From Croceibacterium aestuarii (GTDB taxonomy: Bacteria; Pseudomonadota; Alphaproteobacteria; Sphingomonadales; Sphingomonadaceae), in NCBI RefSeq assembly GCF_030657335.1, contig NZ_CP131039.1, forward strand, positions 2,248,501 through 2,312,500: DNA of 64,000 bases. The letters are read 5' to 3'. Made by a program: the position numbers and the translations under genes. Positions 17,168-22,869 of this stretch are shown here, piece after piece. Position 1 is the first letter of the stretch. Each line of letters begins with the position of its first letter. The notes below the pieces were generated by a model. That model ran no database searches. It saw nothing but the letters and a program-made list of their open reading frames with translations, and was not told the DNA's origin.

Positions 17168-17205
17168 TTGCAAATCTGCAACAGTGACGTTGTAAGCTTG
17201 CAACG
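17168..17205 (+). promoter_or_regulatory. Palindromic CAA/TTG-rich element at the ntrY start
   Basis: The 56-base ntrC-ntrY gap contains two dyads. TTGCA-AATC-TGCAA spans 17168-17181, and the 18-base near-palindrome CGTTGTAAGCTTGCAACG spans 17188-17205, with a single mismatched pair and reaching the G of the ntrY GTG start. Such spacing suits an operator for a dimeric regulator. From memory, NtrX sites in related Alphaproteobacteria are built from CAA and TTG half-sites, so autoregulation is plausible, but that link is inference. Confidence 0.5.
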
Positions 17206-19436
17206 TGGCTGAGGTCGTCCCCCATCCGCCTCCTTCACGGACCAGGCATTCACCCCGCTGGTGGAGACGCGCGCTAGTCACGTCGCGCCGGATGAACCTG
17301 TTTTTCTGGCTCGAAGTCTTCGCCGCGGTCGTGCTGGTCGGGATGCTCGCCAGTTCATGGCTAGCCCTGAGACGCAGCGGAGAAACCAGCGATCCGCTGC
17401 CTTCGCTGCAAGCTGCCGCCCTTCTGGTTGGTACGCTGATCCCAGCGCTGGCCCTGGTGGTCTTGTGGGGCCGCCGCATGGCCATTCGCCGTGCCGGCGA
17501 CAGCAGCGCGAGGCTGCACGTCAAACTGGTGTTCTTCTTTTCCTTGGTCGCCGCCGTGCCGACGCTGCTTGTCGCCGTTTTCGCGTCGATCCTCTTCCAG
17601 TCGGGCGTCGAATTCTGGTTTTCCAGCAGCAACCGCGGGATCCTTGAAGATGCAAGCCGGTTGGCACGCGGCTATTACGACGAGAACCAACGCTCGCTCG
17701 CAAACAATACGACGACGATGGCCGGTGACCTGCGTTACGTGATCGAGCGGATTCCGCTCACCAGCCCCGATTTCTCCGAACAGTGGGTTGGGCAGATACT
17801 TCAGCGCGAACTCAGCCGCAGCGCTATCGTGCAAGTCGGGCGTGATGGGGAAATGGTCATTCCCGCAATCGTCGACCCGGACGACGGCGAGCTCGTCAAG
17901 CGAGCGGTCCGCAATGCACTTCCGGCTCTTCGTGCCGGGGAGGGCGTTGTCGTGGCACTGGGACAGGACCGCGTGGAGGCGGTCACGCCGATCGACCGCG
18001 ACGCGGGAATCTACCTCTACAATGCTCGCAACTCGGACGCGCTGGCGCGCAACCAGTGGGAACGCGCCCAGTCGGTCCTCGCGGCCTACGACCAGCTGAC
18101 GGGACAGGCCCGCAGCAGGCAGCTGCAGTTCAACGTGGCCCTGTTCGCGTTTTCGCTCGCGCTCGTCCTGCTCGCCGTGTGGTTCGCCTTGCGATTTGCC
18201 GATCGGCAGGTGCGTCCGCTGACCGACCTCGTCGCCGCGGCACGCCAGGTCGGCGGCGGCAATTATGCCTTGCGGGTCGAGGGTCGCACCGGACCCGACG
18301 AAATCGGTCTGCTCAACCGCGCCTTCAATCGCATGACCGGACAGATCGAACAGCAGACCGCGGCGCTCGTGGGTGCCAACAAGCAACTCGCCGAACGCCG
18401 CGCGTTCATCGAGACGGTGTTGCAGTCCATCACGGCGGGGATCGTTTCGGTCGACCGGGCGGGCGAAGTGCAATTGATCAACACTTCGGCGCAGCAACTT
18501 CTCCTCGGCCGCACCGGACCTTCGGCCGTGGGGCGCAAACTCGAAGACATTTCGCCCGAAATCGACGCGTTGATGCGCAGTGGATCCGATCACGGACTGG
18601 TCCAGAAAAGCCATGAGGGCGAACTGTTGACGCTTGCGGTCAGGCTCGCTCCGGCCGCGAACGGATGGGTCATCACCTTCGAGGATATCACGCGCCAGCT
18701 GATCGACCAGCGGCAAGCGGCCTGGTCGGACGTCGCGCGGCGCATTGCCCACGAAATCAAGAATCCGCTCACCCCGATCCAGCTCGCCACCGAGCGACTC
18801 AATCGGCGCTATCGGAAGCAGATCGAACAGGACGTCGAGCTGTTCGACGAGCTGACCGGCACGATCATCCGCCAGGTCGGCGACCTCAGGAAGATGGTCG
18901 ACGAATTCTCCTCGTTTGCGCGTCTGCCCAAACCGGTGTTCCGGCAGGAAGATGCCGTCGACCTGGTGCGGCAGGCGATGTTCCTGCAGGAAGTCGCCAG
19001 GCCCGAAATCGATTACCGGTTCAGCGCCCCGGAGCACATGCCGTTACTCGCGTGCGATCGGCACCAGTTCGGGCAAGTCATGACCAATGTGCTGAAGAAC
19101 GCGGCCGAAGCGATCGAGGCAAGGCGCAAGGATTCCGAGCCGGACTATCGCGGCAGGATCGGTGTGGAGGTCGGGCTTAGCGATCGGTTCTTCAGTGTAA
19201 CGGTTACGGACAACGGCGTCGGTTTACCAAGCCACGGCAGCGATCGGATCCTCGAGCCTTACGTGACGACGCGGGAGAAGGGCACCGGACTGGGCCTGGC
19301 GATCGTCAAGAAGATCATCGAGGAACACGCCGGAGACATGACTTTTGCGAGCAACGGGGATGGGGAGGGCACCACGGTAACCCTGCGCTTTGCGCGCGAT
19401 CCGGTTGCCAACGGCAAGGCCGAGGCAGCCGAATGA
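17205..19436 (+). CDS. ntrY: Membrane sensor histidine kinase NtrY
   Basis: NtrY is the transmembrane partner of NtrX, linked in other Alphaproteobacteria to nitrogen, redox and envelope signals. The 743-residue product has an N-terminal group of helices (about residues 29-120), a periplasmic or linker region, another helix near 310-330, a HAMP domain (RFADRQVRPLTDLVAAARQV), a PAS region, then [20 protein letters not shown] with His516 and an ATPase domain (NVLKNAAEAIE, VTDNGVGLP, GTGLGLAIVKKI). The start is a GTG; no nearer ATG precedes the first helix. The gene lies 56 bases behind ntrC. Confidence 0.94.
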   Translation: MAEVVPHPPPSRTRHSPRWWRRALVTSRRMNLFFWLEVFAAVVLVGMLASSWLALRRSGETSDPLPSLQAAALLVGTLIPALALVVLWGRRMAIRRAGDSSARLHVKLVFFFSLVAAVPTLLVAVFASILFQSGVEFWFSSSNRGILEDASRLARGYYDENQRSLANNTTTMAGDLRYVIERIPLTSPDFSEQWVGQILQRELSRSAIVQVGRDGEMVIPAIVDPDDGELVKRAVRNALPALRAGEGVVVALGQDRVEAVTPIDRDAGIYLYNARNSDALARNQWERAQSVLAAYDQLTGQARSRQLQFNVALFAFSLALVLLAVWFALRFADRQVRPLTDLVAAARQVGGGNYALRVEGRTGPDEIGLLNRAFNRMTGQIEQQTAALVGANKQLAERRAFIETVLQSITAGIVSVDRAGEVQLINTSAQQLLLGRTGPSAVGRKLEDISPEIDALMRSGSDHGLVQKSHEGELLTLAVRLAPAANGWVITFEDITRQLIDQRQAAWSDVARRIAHEIKNPLTPIQLATERLNRRYRKQIEQDVELFDELTGTIIRQVGDLRKMVDEFSSFARLPKPVFRQEDAVDLVRQAMFLQEVARPEIDYRFSAPEHMPLLACDRHQFGQVMTNVLKNAAEAIEARRKDSEPDYRGRIGVEVGLSDRFFSVTVTDNGVGLPSHGSDRILEPYVTTREKGTGLGLAIVKKIIEEHAGDMTFASNGDGEGTTVTLRFARDPVANGKAEAAE

Positions 19437-19455
19437 CTATCATGGAGAATACATA

Positions 19456-20832
19456 ATGGCGCTCGACATCCTTGTAGTCGACGACGAGCATGACATCCGC
19501 GAGCTGGTCGCCGGGGTCCTGAGCGACGAGGGCTACGAGTGCCGCACGGCTGGCGACAGCACCAGTGCACTCAAAATGATCGACGAGCGTCGTCCCAGCC
19601 TCGTGCTGCTCGATGTCTGGCTCCATGGCAGCCAGATGGACGGTTTGGAACTGCTCGACGAAATCAAGCAGCGCGAACCCGCGCTTCCGGTGATCATATT
19701 CTCCGGCCACGGCAATATCGACACGGCAGTCTCCGCGGTCAGCCGAGGGGCCATGGATTTCATCGAAAAGCCGTTCGAAGCCGAACGCCTGTTGCTGCTC
19801 GTTGCCCGCGCTACCGAAACCGAACGGTTGCGGCGGGAGAACGAGCGATTGCGCGAAGGCTTCGTCCAGACCGACGAATTCACAGGCAACTCGAGTGCGA
19901 TCAACGCAGTGCGCGCAACGCTCAAGCGCGTGGCGGGCACCGGAAGCCGCGTGATGATCACCGGGCCGGCGGGCGCCGGCAAGGAAGTCGCCGCGCGGCT
20001 GCTCCACTCATGGAGTCCGCGGACGGACAAGGCCTTCGTCACCGTCAACTCGGCTCGGATCACGCCCGAGCGCTTCGAGCAAGAGCTGTTCGGGGAAGAA
20101 GAAGACGGCAAGCTCGTTCGCGCCGGCCTGCTGGAGCTGGCGAATGGGGGAACGCTCTATCTCGACGAAGTGGCCGATATGCCGGCGAGCACGCAAGCCA
20201 GGATTCTGCGCGTCCTGACCGACCAGAGCTTTGTCCGCGCCGGCGGCAATCGCCAGATCGGAGTCGACGTGAGAGTCGTTTCTTCGACCTCGCGCGATCT
20301 CGAAAAGGAGATAGAGGAAAAGCGCTTTCGCGAAGACCTGTTCTATCGTCTCAACGTCGTCCCGGTTGCGATCCCTCCGCTGGCCGAGCGGCGCGACGAC
20401 ATTCCCGCGCTGGCGGAGCATTTCTTCACCCGTTACGCCAGAGAACAGGGTGTGCCGGCTCCCGGCGTCGCTCCGGAAGCGCTCGCCGCGTTGCAGGCTT
20501 ACGACTGGCCGGGGAATGTTCGCCAACTGAGAAACGTCGTCGAACGCACCGTCATCCTGGCACCGCGCGATCGACTTGAAACGATCGAGGCCGATATGCT
20601 CCCGGACGAAGTAACCGGTCGGTCCGCTGACAGTGGGCAGAGCATCTCGGCCTTGATGGGCGTGCCTCTGCGCGAGGCGAGGGAAAGCTTCGAGCGCGAA
20701 TATCTGCGGATCCAGATCCGCCGGTTCTCCGGCAATATATCGAAGACTGCCGGGTTCATCGGGATGGAGCGGTCGGCCCTTCATCGCAAGCTGAAGTTGT
20801 TGGGAATGGGCGACCGCGACGGTTCGAGTTGA
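19456..20832 (+). CDS. ntrX: Response regulator NtrX without the GAFTGA motif
   Basis: NtrX is the partner of NtrY. The 458-residue protein has a receiver with Asp53, an AAA+ domain and a C-terminal helix-turn-helix (SKTAGFIGMERSALHRKLKLLG). Where NtrC reads GHEKGAFTGA, this protein reads ELFGEEEDGKLVRAGLLELA, so the sigma54-contact loop is gone. Walker A is altered to TGPAGAGKE, while Walker B GGTLYLDE remains. It probably controls transcription without classical sigma54 activation. The start MALDILVVDDEHD follows a GGAGAA ribosome-binding site. Confidence 0.94.
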   Translation: MALDILVVDDEHDIRELVAGVLSDEGYECRTAGDSTSALKMIDERRPSLVLLDVWLHGSQMDGLELLDEIKQREPALPVIIFSGHGNIDTAVSAVSRGAMDFIEKPFEAERLLLLVARATETERLRRENERLREGFVQTDEFTGNSSAINAVRATLKRVAGTGSRVMITGPAGAGKEVAARLLHSWSPRTDKAFVTVNSARITPERFEQELFGEEEDGKLVRAGLLELANGGTLYLDEVADMPASTQARILRVLTDQSFVRAGGNRQIGVDVRVVSSTSRDLEKEIEEKRFREDLFYRLNVVPVAIPPLAERRDDIPALAEHFFTRYAREQGVPAPGVAPEALAALQAYDWPGNVRQLRNVVERTVILAPRDRLETIEADMLPDEVTGRSADSGQSISALMGVPLREARESFEREYLRIQIRRFSGNISKTAGFIGMERSALHRKLKLLGMGDRDGSS

Positions 20833-20930: not shown

Positions 20931-20983
20931 AGAATGCGGTCGCCCCGATGCGGCCGCCAATAACGAAGAAGGAAGAATGGCCC

Positions 20984-21553
20984 ATGAACAAGCCGACCCT
21001 TTCCGCGCGGCCGCGCGCTCCCCGGGAAACAGCAGCACCCGATCCGGCCCCTGCGGCTGGCAACAAGGGCGCCAACCTCCAGGACATGTTTCTCAATCAC
21101 CTGCGCCGCGAGAAGATGCCGGTGACGATGTTTCTGGTGAAGGGCGTAAAGCTGCAAGGCATTGTCACTTGGTTCGACAATTTCTCGATCTTGCTGCGGC
21201 GGGACGGCCAATCGCAGCTGGTCTACAAGCACGCCGTCTCCACCATCATGCCCAGCCAGCCACTCGACGCGGGCCAATTCGCCACCGGACCGGACGCGCA
21301 GCGCAAACAGCGATTGCTGCAGGACGTGTTTCTCAGCCGCGTGCGCGAGGCGACGGTGCAAGTGACGATGTTTCTGGTCAACGGCGTCATGCTTCAGGGC
21401 CGGATTGCCGCCTACGACCTGTTCTGCATTCTCCTCGAACGCGAAGGTTTTGTCCAACTGGCCTACAAGCATGCCGTGTCGACAATCCAGCCAGCGGCGC
21501 CGGTCGATCTGACCAGCGAGTGGGATGACGAAGACGGGGGCAACGACTCCTGA
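20984..21553 (+). CDS. hfq: Hfq RNA chaperone with two tandem Sm domains
   Basis: Hfq binds small RNAs and mRNAs as a hexameric ring. This 189-residue chain contains two full Sm folds. Domain 1 (about residues 30-90) has [25 protein letters not shown] and [10 protein letters not shown]. Domain 2 (about 109-171) has [25 protein letters not shown] and [10 protein letters not shown]. Both keep the proximal-face Gln and YKHA, but the arginine-rich rim (RREK) exists only in domain 1. An 18-residue linker joins them and the tail is acidic ([12 protein letters not shown]). The start has a GAAGGAAG ribosome-binding site and places 29 disordered residues before domain 1. Confidence 0.93.
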
Positions 21554-22869
21554 GCTTCGATGATGAAATAGGGGAAGTCTCCCGGGGCGCGCGAGCGTTG
21601 GTGCTGTGTCCCGACATCCGCGGTTCGCGCAACGACCAGGATCCGGAGTCGCGCCTCGAAGAGGCCAAAGGGCTAGCGCTGGCAATCGGCTTGGTCGTGG
21701 CGGATGCCGAGATTGTACCGGTGCGTGAAGTGCGCCCGGCGACTTTGTTCGGGCAGGGCCAGATCGAGCGTATCGCCAGCAATTGCGAACTGCACGAAGC
21801 CGATCTCGTCATAGTCGACGGCGCGTTGTCGGCTATCCAGCAGCGCAACCTCGAGGAAAAGCTCAAGCGCAAGGTCATCGACCGAACGGGTCTGATTCTC
21901 GAAATCTTCGGCGAGCGCGCGGCAACGGCGGAGGGCCGCTTGCAGGTGGAACTCGCGCACCTCGACTATCAGCAGAGCCGGCTGGTCAGGAGCTGGACCC
22001 ACCTCGAGCGCCAGCGCGGTGGTTTCGGGTTCCTCGGCGGCCCAGGGGAAACGCAGATCGAGGCCGACCGCCGCATGATCCGCGACCGAATGGCCCGGCT
22101 GCGCCGAGAACTAGAGCAGGTCAGGCGAACCCGCGCCCTGCACCGCAAGCGGCGCGATCGGGCCCCGTGGCCCGTCGTCGCCCTCGTCGGGTACACCAAT
22201 GCCGGAAAGTCCACGCTCTTCAACCGTTTGACCGGTTCCGATGTCATGGCGGAAGACCTGTTGTTTGCCACGCTCGATCCAACCATGCGGGCGATCTCAC
22301 TGCCCGGCGTCGAAAAGGCCATATTGTCCGATACCGTGGGATTTATTTCCGACTTGCCAACCCAGCTCGTCGCCGCCTTCCGCGCCACGCTCGAAGAGGT
22401 CACCGAAGCCGATCTCATCCTTCACGTACGCGACATCGCCAATCCCGACAGTGCGATGCAGAAGCGCCAGGTCCTTTCCGTGCTTCAGGACCTCGACGTC
22501 ATCGGCGGGGAGGGGGGCGAAACCTCGATTCCGATACTCGAACTGTGGAACAAGTGGGACCTGCTCGGTGCAGACCGCAGCGCCGAGCTCGCCCCGCTTG
22601 CGGATGCCGATCCCGACATATTGCCGCTTTCGGCCATTAGCGGTTTCGGCATCGATGCAGTGCTCGCCCGGATTGGCGCCATTCTTACCGAAGGCGCCAA
22701 GGTCCACAGCATCACCCTGCCTGCCGGCGACGGCGCGCGCATCGCATGGCTGCATGCGCATGGCGAGGTTCTCGACGAGGTCGAGGCGGGAGAAGGGGAG
22801 CGCGGACCGCTGCGCCGTCTCGACGTACGCCTCAGCAAAAAGGACCTCGGGCGTTTCGAGACCCTATGA
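21550..22869 (+). CDS. hflX: Ribosome-associated GTPase HflX
   Basis: HflX is a GTPase that rescues or splits stalled 70S ribosomes. It has an N-terminal HflX domain ([12 protein letters not shown], then [18 protein letters not shown]), a coiled-coil linker and a G domain with [14 protein letters not shown] (P-loop), [10 protein letters not shown] and NKWD. The frame has no ATG or GTG between its upstream stop and position 21598. The residues before the TTG at 21598 ([20 protein letters not shown]) look like genuine HflX N-terminus, so I place the start at a CTG overlapping the hfq stop as CTGA. The TTG is the conservative alternative. The 3' end overlaps convergent mazG by six bases. Confidence 0.88.

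Follow-up and report, generated by a model that had tools for sequence, protein, structure and literature searches.

Unlike Sm domains in the tandem Hfq of Croceibacterium aestuarii: fixed distal and proximal differences and a variably eroded second rim

The hfq locus

The stretch of DNA that we analysed (the window) is 64,000 nucleotides long and comes from the genome of Croceibacterium aestuarii. It contains an hfq gene that lies between ntrY-ntrX and hflX and that encodes two Sm domains in one chain (Table 1). The computed mass of the chain is 20.98 kDa, or about 63 kDa for three chains, and among the named matches listed its closest relative is the protein from C. salegens, with 89% of residues identical across the best-matching segment. 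The tandem protein is the sole Hfq that we found in this genome: a profile search of the whole 3.35-Mb, one-contig genome gave no further match to PF17209 beyond its two Sm domains.

Table 1. Features of the hfq locus, in window positions. Residue numbers in brackets follow E. coli Hfq.
Feature	Position	Strand	Remarks
ntrY	17205..19436	+	upstream of hfq; PF19312 NtrY_N
ntrX	19456..20832	+	upstream neighbour; Pfam receiver and sigma-54 domains; start codon picked by eye
tandem-Sm hfq	20984..21553	+	ATG at 20984, TGA ending at 21553; 189 aa; NF010691 302.3 bits (cut-off 270)
N-terminal extension, residues 1-31	20984..21076	+	with TLSAR motif; pLDDT 54-62 for residues 1-30
Sm domain 1 (D1)	21077..21265	+	PF17209 107.7 bits, E 7e-31; pLDDT 94-98, blocks 31-100
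D1 rim R41 R42 E43 K44 (16-19)	21104..21115	+	own alignment
D1 distal face K53 (28) to K56 (31)	21140..21151	+	K28 derived, K31 the state of single-domain proteins
Linker D1 to D2, residues 91-111	21254..21316	+	near-neutral; start overlaps Pfam end of D1
Sm domain 2 (D2)	21317..21505	+	PF17209 85.5 bits, E 6e-24; pLDDT 93-98, blocks 111-170
D2 rim R121 E122 A123 T124 (16-19)	21344..21355	+	own alignment
D2 distal face N133 (28) to M136 (31)	21380..21391	+	N28 and M31 in 124/124 D2
D2 L146 (41, proximal pocket)	21419..21421	+	N in D1
D2 E152 (R49 of C. crescentus Hfq)	21437..21439	+	R72 in D1
D2 Q169 (63)	21488..21490	+	M in single-domain proteins and in 122/124 D1
Acidic C-terminal tail	21494..21550	+	behind D2 only; charge given over 124 tandems
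hflX	21598..22869	+	downstream neighbour; Pfam GTP-bdg_N, GTP-bdg_M, MMR_HSR1; start codon provisional

A 183-aa ORF (20977-21528) overlaps hfq in another frame, with its ATG seven bases upstream. We considered it as a second gene and set it aside because the frame is rarely open among the tandem genes that we compared (it is open across D1 and D2 in 10 of 124, with 1-9 stops in the remainder). As hfq is also G+C-rich, we take the overlap to be chance.

Two Sm domains in one chain

The protein consists of a 31-residue N-terminal extension, D1, a 21-residue linker, D2, and a 19-residue acidic tail. The original prediction of two complete Sm folds holds: both matches to PF17209 are far above its cut-off of 27 bits, and YKHA occurs twice, once in each domain. 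TIGR02383 also matches well, in two stretches (177.7 bits, with a cut-off of 61.7). NF010691 (176 positions) matches in one stretch, residues 23-184, which spans both domains and suggests that NF010691 is a model of the two-domain form. An AlphaFold model of the single chain (from an alignment of 70 tandems, pTM 0.76) agrees with the two domains as placed, with pLDDT of 93-98 in both Sm folds and low confidence for the extension, linker, and tail. This is a model of one chain and has no ring in it.

Residue numbers hereafter follow E. coli Hfq by our own alignment. The rim was correctly read beforehand as RREK in D1 and REAT in D2, and so was the replacement of the distal lysine by methionine in D2 (K56 in D1, M136 in D2). 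Other differences in D2 are that N13 is lost, W at position 38 is A, F39 is Y, position 41 is leucine (L146), and the first arginine after the LL motif, which is R49 of C. crescentus Hfq, is E152. Conversely, K28 (K53) is present in D1 only. Of the arginine patch at 16, 17, and 19, the D2 of the window retains just the basic residue at 16 (R121), and it also retains the second arginine after LL (R153). So, the proposal that the D2 rim is silent stands as far as the loss of basic residues at 17 and 19 is concerned, but with R121 and R153 in place, the rim as judged from the sequence is weakened and not fully silent.

Sequences and trees compared

Among the loci that we fetched, 144 of 189 have a two-domain ORF. 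After removing L002 (a repeat of L001) and counting only once those proteins that do not differ in either domain, the linker, or the tail, 133 were left. Nine loci from genus g13, which were fetched for their weak scores, were set apart, which gave 124 counted tandems. These are weighted toward the window's neighbourhood because 80 of the loci are the best 80 of at least 555 matches to the window protein. The single-domain reference has 40 unique proteins (12 in the window's family and 28 outside it), with the fragment L188 removed.

The locus tree was built from NtrX and HflX of 83 loci (HflX only for the outgroup rows) by a quick method without bootstrap, and some long branches were flagged. 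The genomes behind its 54 non-g13 tandem rows were mostly chosen for spread across genera, and 76 of the 124 counted tandems lie outside it. From this tree we took 17 tandem rows as early, and we treated the remaining 107, whether in the tree or not, as late. The tree of separate domains (148 rows) has 65 columns and hence is weak.

Distribution and origin of the fusion

Tandem Hfq appears to be confined to one family. In a search of 396 genomes of the order, 313 belong to the window's family (f1), and 300 of these have two Hfq matches (confirmed to lie within one ORF for the fetched loci only) while 13 have one. Of the 83 genomes beyond f1, 76 have one match, 6 have none, and one (G001) has two. 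We rejected G001 as a tandem because its second match (L188) is a fragment, spanning 38 positions where the contig ends. Of 240 genomes searched across the class, 44 lack a match, and two matches occur only in the three f1 genomes among them and in G679. The latter was also rejected, as its matches are two separate genes on two contigs. (G679 belongs to another family of the class; its second, divergent Hfq gene stands alone at C3:48795-48983 and scores 71.4 bits.) Within the family, G397 was rejected because it lacks both of the DNA signatures described below and has two far-apart single-domain copies, in an assembly that is 86% complete.

On the NtrX and HflX tree, the 63 tandem rows (of 83) form one clade (SH-aLRT 100), and all 13 single-domain rows of the family fall outside it. 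The label changes from single to tandem once, which we interpret as a single duplication, with no loss observed among the tree rows. Thus, the trees support a single origin of the fusion, inside one family. In the domain tree, D2 forms one clade (support 100, stem 0.49) and D1 forms another (87, not starred, stem 0.09); the longer stem of D2 suggests that D2 did most of the changing.

The nine g13 loci (L153-L161) are diverged in both Sm domains (72-91 bits for D1 and 45-58 bits for D2). N41 is lost from D1 in 9 of 9, H57 is Gln in 5 of 9, position 31 is Arg in D1 and variable in D2, and the tails are 3-7 residues long. Five other g13 genomes, in the family set of 397 genomes, keep both DNA signatures at 28/31.

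Fixed differences between the two halves

All 124 tandems have K28 and K31 in D1 and N28 and M31 in D2, and all 40 single-domain proteins have N28 and K31. With these as the reference, position 28 is derived in D1 (N to K), and positions 31 (K to M), 41 (N to L, P, or Q), and 63 (M to Q) are derived in D2. At positions 28, 31, 37, 38, 41, and 63, D1 and D2 have no residue in common across the 124 tandems. Positions 28, 31, and 63 show no changes on the tree, and position 63 is Q in every D2. Position 41 is N in every D1 and is L in 119, P in 3, and Q in 2 of the D2s, with five changes on the tree.

Degenerate DNA signatures for positions 28 and 31 extend the pattern to 397 genomes of the family: NGVMLQG (D2) was found in 334 and KGVKLQG (D1) in 335. 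The extra genome is G613, whose sole match is at contig bases 71-259, so that D2 is cut off. Besides G613, the 63 genomes without NGVMLQG are 9 without an Hfq match, 48 with single-domain Hfq only, and 5 g13 tandems. The codons at and around the 28 and 31 sites vary synonymously, so it is the protein sequence that is kept.

Q8, F25, L26, G29, V30, L32, Q33, Q52, Y55, K56, H57, and T61 are invariant in both domains of all 124 tandems. F42 is kept in 123 of 124 D2s, while K31 and N41 are lost. With twelve residues held throughout, D2 looks, by its sequence, like a working Sm unit.

In the AlphaFold model, residue 31 begins the second strand and residue 28 sits in the turn that leads into it, so unlike neighbours would give unlike sites. 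In E. coli, the K31A mutant is reported to be mild for regulation yet to cut chimeras almost fourfold (PMC12262471), which makes the weight of a change at 31 unsure. In a model of the E. coli complex with RydC, Q41 is a likely contact for uridine (PMC4337610). V54 and V62 have been named as interface residues (PMC11770335), and D2 has changes near the subunit contact at 51, 54, and 63; none of the 17 early rows has A54. Our literature search for residues 28 and 31 named together found nothing. The sequences show a stronger asymmetry at the fixed positions than at the rim.

The rim is strong in D1 and variably eroded in D2

D1 is basic at 16, 17, and 19 in all 124 tandems, and its rim charge, summed over seven positions (16-20 plus the pair that follows LL), is +4 or +5 in every one of the 124 D1s and of the 40 single-domain proteins. 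In D2 the mode is 0 (58 tandems), with −1 in 25, +1 in 23, −2 in 10, +2 in 5, and −3, +3, and +4 in one each. The positions are affected to different degrees. Position 16 is Arg in 101 D2s and basic in 103. Position 17 is basic in 17 and non-basic in 107, and position 19 is basic in 4 and non-basic in 120. The R49 equivalent, which is R in every D1, is basic in 4 D2s and E in 112, and the second arginine after LL is retained in all 124.

Thus, the rim asymmetry is real in the window and common in the family, but it is not universal. D2 is basic at all of 16, 17, and 19 in two tandems, L186 (RRTR) and L171 (KRER), and the D2s of L178 and L180 retain three of the four basic residues among these positions and the R49 equivalent. 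On the tree, changes between basic and non-basic residues number at least 13 at position 16, 6 at 17, 4 at 19, and 3 at the R49 equivalent. The original prediction expected conserved rim loss in the second domains of sphingomonads and no related D2 with an intact rim. The latter expectation failed, though just 2 of the 54 non-g13 tandem rows in the tree are intact at 16, 17, and 19, and L186, L171, and the repeated changes rule out conserved loss as it was stated. What survives of it is a lineage-specific erosion, which the sequences support: E occupies the R49 equivalent in 106 of 107 late D2s and in 6 of 17 early ones, and position 17 is D or E in 77 of 107 late D2s, with neither among the residues listed there for the 17 early D2s.

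Some rim function may persist in D2. Annealing tracks the number of rim arginines (PMC10628458, PMC6561178), and R16A on its own is reported to remove almost all RIL-seq chimeras in E. coli (PMC12262471), so the 101 D2s with R16 may keep part of the activity. Among the positions of the lateral pocket, which include 13, 38, and 39 (PMC5379935, PMC4337610), N13 is retained in 7 of 124 D2s and W38 in none. (Position 38 is Ser in E. coli, and the contact there in Aquifex is by the backbone; PMC5379935, PMC4337610.) Position 39 is Y in 96 D2s, F in 27, and H in 1. We considered Tyr at 39 as a loss of the rim pocket and dropped the idea because the residue is still aromatic; as every D2 has one of F, Y, and H at this position, the rim may still be able to stack bases. 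Also, D2 has gained R or K at position 35 in 95 of 124 tandems, and if 35 is counted, the mode of the charge in late-clade D2s becomes +1, so part of the rim charge seems to have moved. The charges at 35 and at the first residue after LL (E152 in the window) are +/− in 95 D2s, −/+ in 4, +/+ in none, and −/− in 6 (n = 124). As few events on the tree underlie this pairing, a salt bridge is only suggested.

Extension, linker, and tail

The linker is 20-24 aa in all 124 tandems. Its mean charge is near neutral (+0.5), although it includes acidic stretches, and its most acidic 10 residues average −2.1. The tail after D2 has a mean charge of −6.4 (range −13 to −2). Over the last ten residues, the mean charge is −3.75 in single-domain proteins and −5.1 in tandems. 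In C. crescentus Hfq, an acidic tip is reported to dock on the rim of the neighbouring subunit (PMC6561178).

Within the 70 residues before D1, where start codons are unsettled, 100 of the 124 tandems have a TLSAR-like motif, which all 40 single-domain proteins lack. L149 and L187, scored as lacking the motif, have the related TLSTR and TLSIR, so a single gain, in the window's clade, may account for it.

A proposed ring and its alternatives

We propose that three chains of the fused Hfq probably close one ring, with a threefold alternation of unlike halves. Each chain would fill two neighbouring positions of the six-position Sm ring. After the duplication, as the sequences show, the second half changed fast and then held still at a few positions: 31 went from Lys to Met in D2 while D1 gained a lysine at 28, D2 lost the Asn at 41, and 63, adjacent to the interface residue V62 of E. 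coli, became Gln. Around the ring, two kinds of site would then alternate along both the distal and the proximal RNA track. The D2 rim, released from constraint, has eroded to differing degrees and has a charge of about 0 in the window's clade, which would leave each ring with three strong rims, all from D1. As the tail follows D2 only and each D2 would be flanked by D1s, every tail would adjoin a strong rim, and tails and strong rims would be paired one to one. By analogy with the C. crescentus tail, each tail could gate the rim beside it.

A more specific version is tentative, and we lean against it in its full form: an obligate two-component ring in which three distal sites are K28/K31 and the other three N28/M31, the proximal pockets divide equally between N41 and L41 (three of each), tails gate the three strong rims, and D1-28 and D2-31 form a coupled switch across the D1-D2 contact. 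If true, such a ring would mark a move from homo-oligomeric toward hetero-oligomeric Sm rings, with RNA read in two-unit steps.

The rim may have a simpler history, to which we give an even chance and which is compatible with a ring of three chains. If three good rims suffice, the D2 rim is redundant and could decay neutrally, without any special role. The many changes at the four basic positions of D2, set against a D1 that is basic throughout, fit drift, as does the fuller retention of basic residues in rows that branch outside the large clade, including L186 and L171. But the near-uniform E at the R49 equivalent and the acidic residues at 17 in late D2s look held, and drift leaves the differences at 28, 31, and 63 unexplained.

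Two other architectures would do without the alternation. Six chains might form a D1 hexamer stacked on a D2 hexamer, with six linkers between them. Stacked rings have been seen for Hfq in crystals (PMC5379935), and D2 has kept its core and is modelled well, yet we consider this arrangement unlikely because a linker of 20-24 aa between two folds so alike is more simply explained by neighbours within a ring. (The changes at 51, 54, and 63 in D2 fit unlike and like neighbours equally and do not decide for or against stacked rings.) Alternatively, D2 might be a docking module or another domain outside the ring, with a hexamer formed from D1 alone. D2 is indeed less conserved than D1 (mean pairwise identity of 0.79 vs. 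0.86), but a docking module would have no need of the twelve core and base-contact residues that every D2 retains, and we regard this as very improbable. A three-chain ring with alternating halves is the reading that we favour.

Comparison with known systems

The fusion itself is already known, as the original prediction noted. According to Yang et al. 2010 (PMC2877685), the Hfq of Zymomonas mobilis (ZMO0347), which like the window protein is one chain, has two Sm-like domains, as does that of six other Sphingomonadales, and these authors ask whether three chains suffice for a ring. They also give the eukaryotic Sm/Lsm hetero-rings as background. We found no residue-level comparison of the halves of ZMO0347 in the portions of that paper available to us. 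The naming model NF010691 (PRK14091, RNA chaperone Hfq) covers the window protein and is silent on mechanism. Our literature search covered open-licence papers; among those listed, Yang et al. 2010 was the only one on tandem Hfq, none dealt with differences between the halves, and the available portions of PMC10725011, PMC5770649, and PMC5107571 have nothing on tandem Hfq. So, within this search, we have seen no earlier description of the asymmetry at the residue level. According to a review, Sphingopyxis granuli TFA uses the sRNA SuhB with Hfq to silence thnR (PMC6563040). We also found no solved structure of a tandem chain: each of the 35 PDB sequences that match at E up to 0.01 does so in one stretch, and the fold matches, of which 50 were listed, span 60-74 columns.

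In single-domain Hfq, one point mutation alters all six positions of the ring together, so it is hard to ask how many rims or distal sites are needed or whether they must be adjacent. In a fused Hfq with unlike halves, each half could be changed alone, which would make the stoichiometry of sRNA annealing directly testable. Tandem Hfq may also offer a case of an Sm ring losing its symmetry, with close single-domain relatives at hand.

The best fold match is C. crescentus Hfq (6gwk; 74-77% identity over 60-65 columns), which also has an acidic tail and a basic rim (R18, K19, and K21 with R49 and R50; PMC6561178). In contrast to the window protein, it has one Sm domain per chain and six equal units with a tail on each. 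E. coli Hfq shares the Sm fold, YKHA, and most of the distal and proximal contact residues, but it is single-domain, with the R16, R17, and R19 rim on all six units. Eukaryotic Sm and Lsm hetero-rings are built of unlike Sm units on seven separate chains. A ring of the window Hfq would resemble them in having unlike units, but it would have at most two types of unit, fused in one chain.
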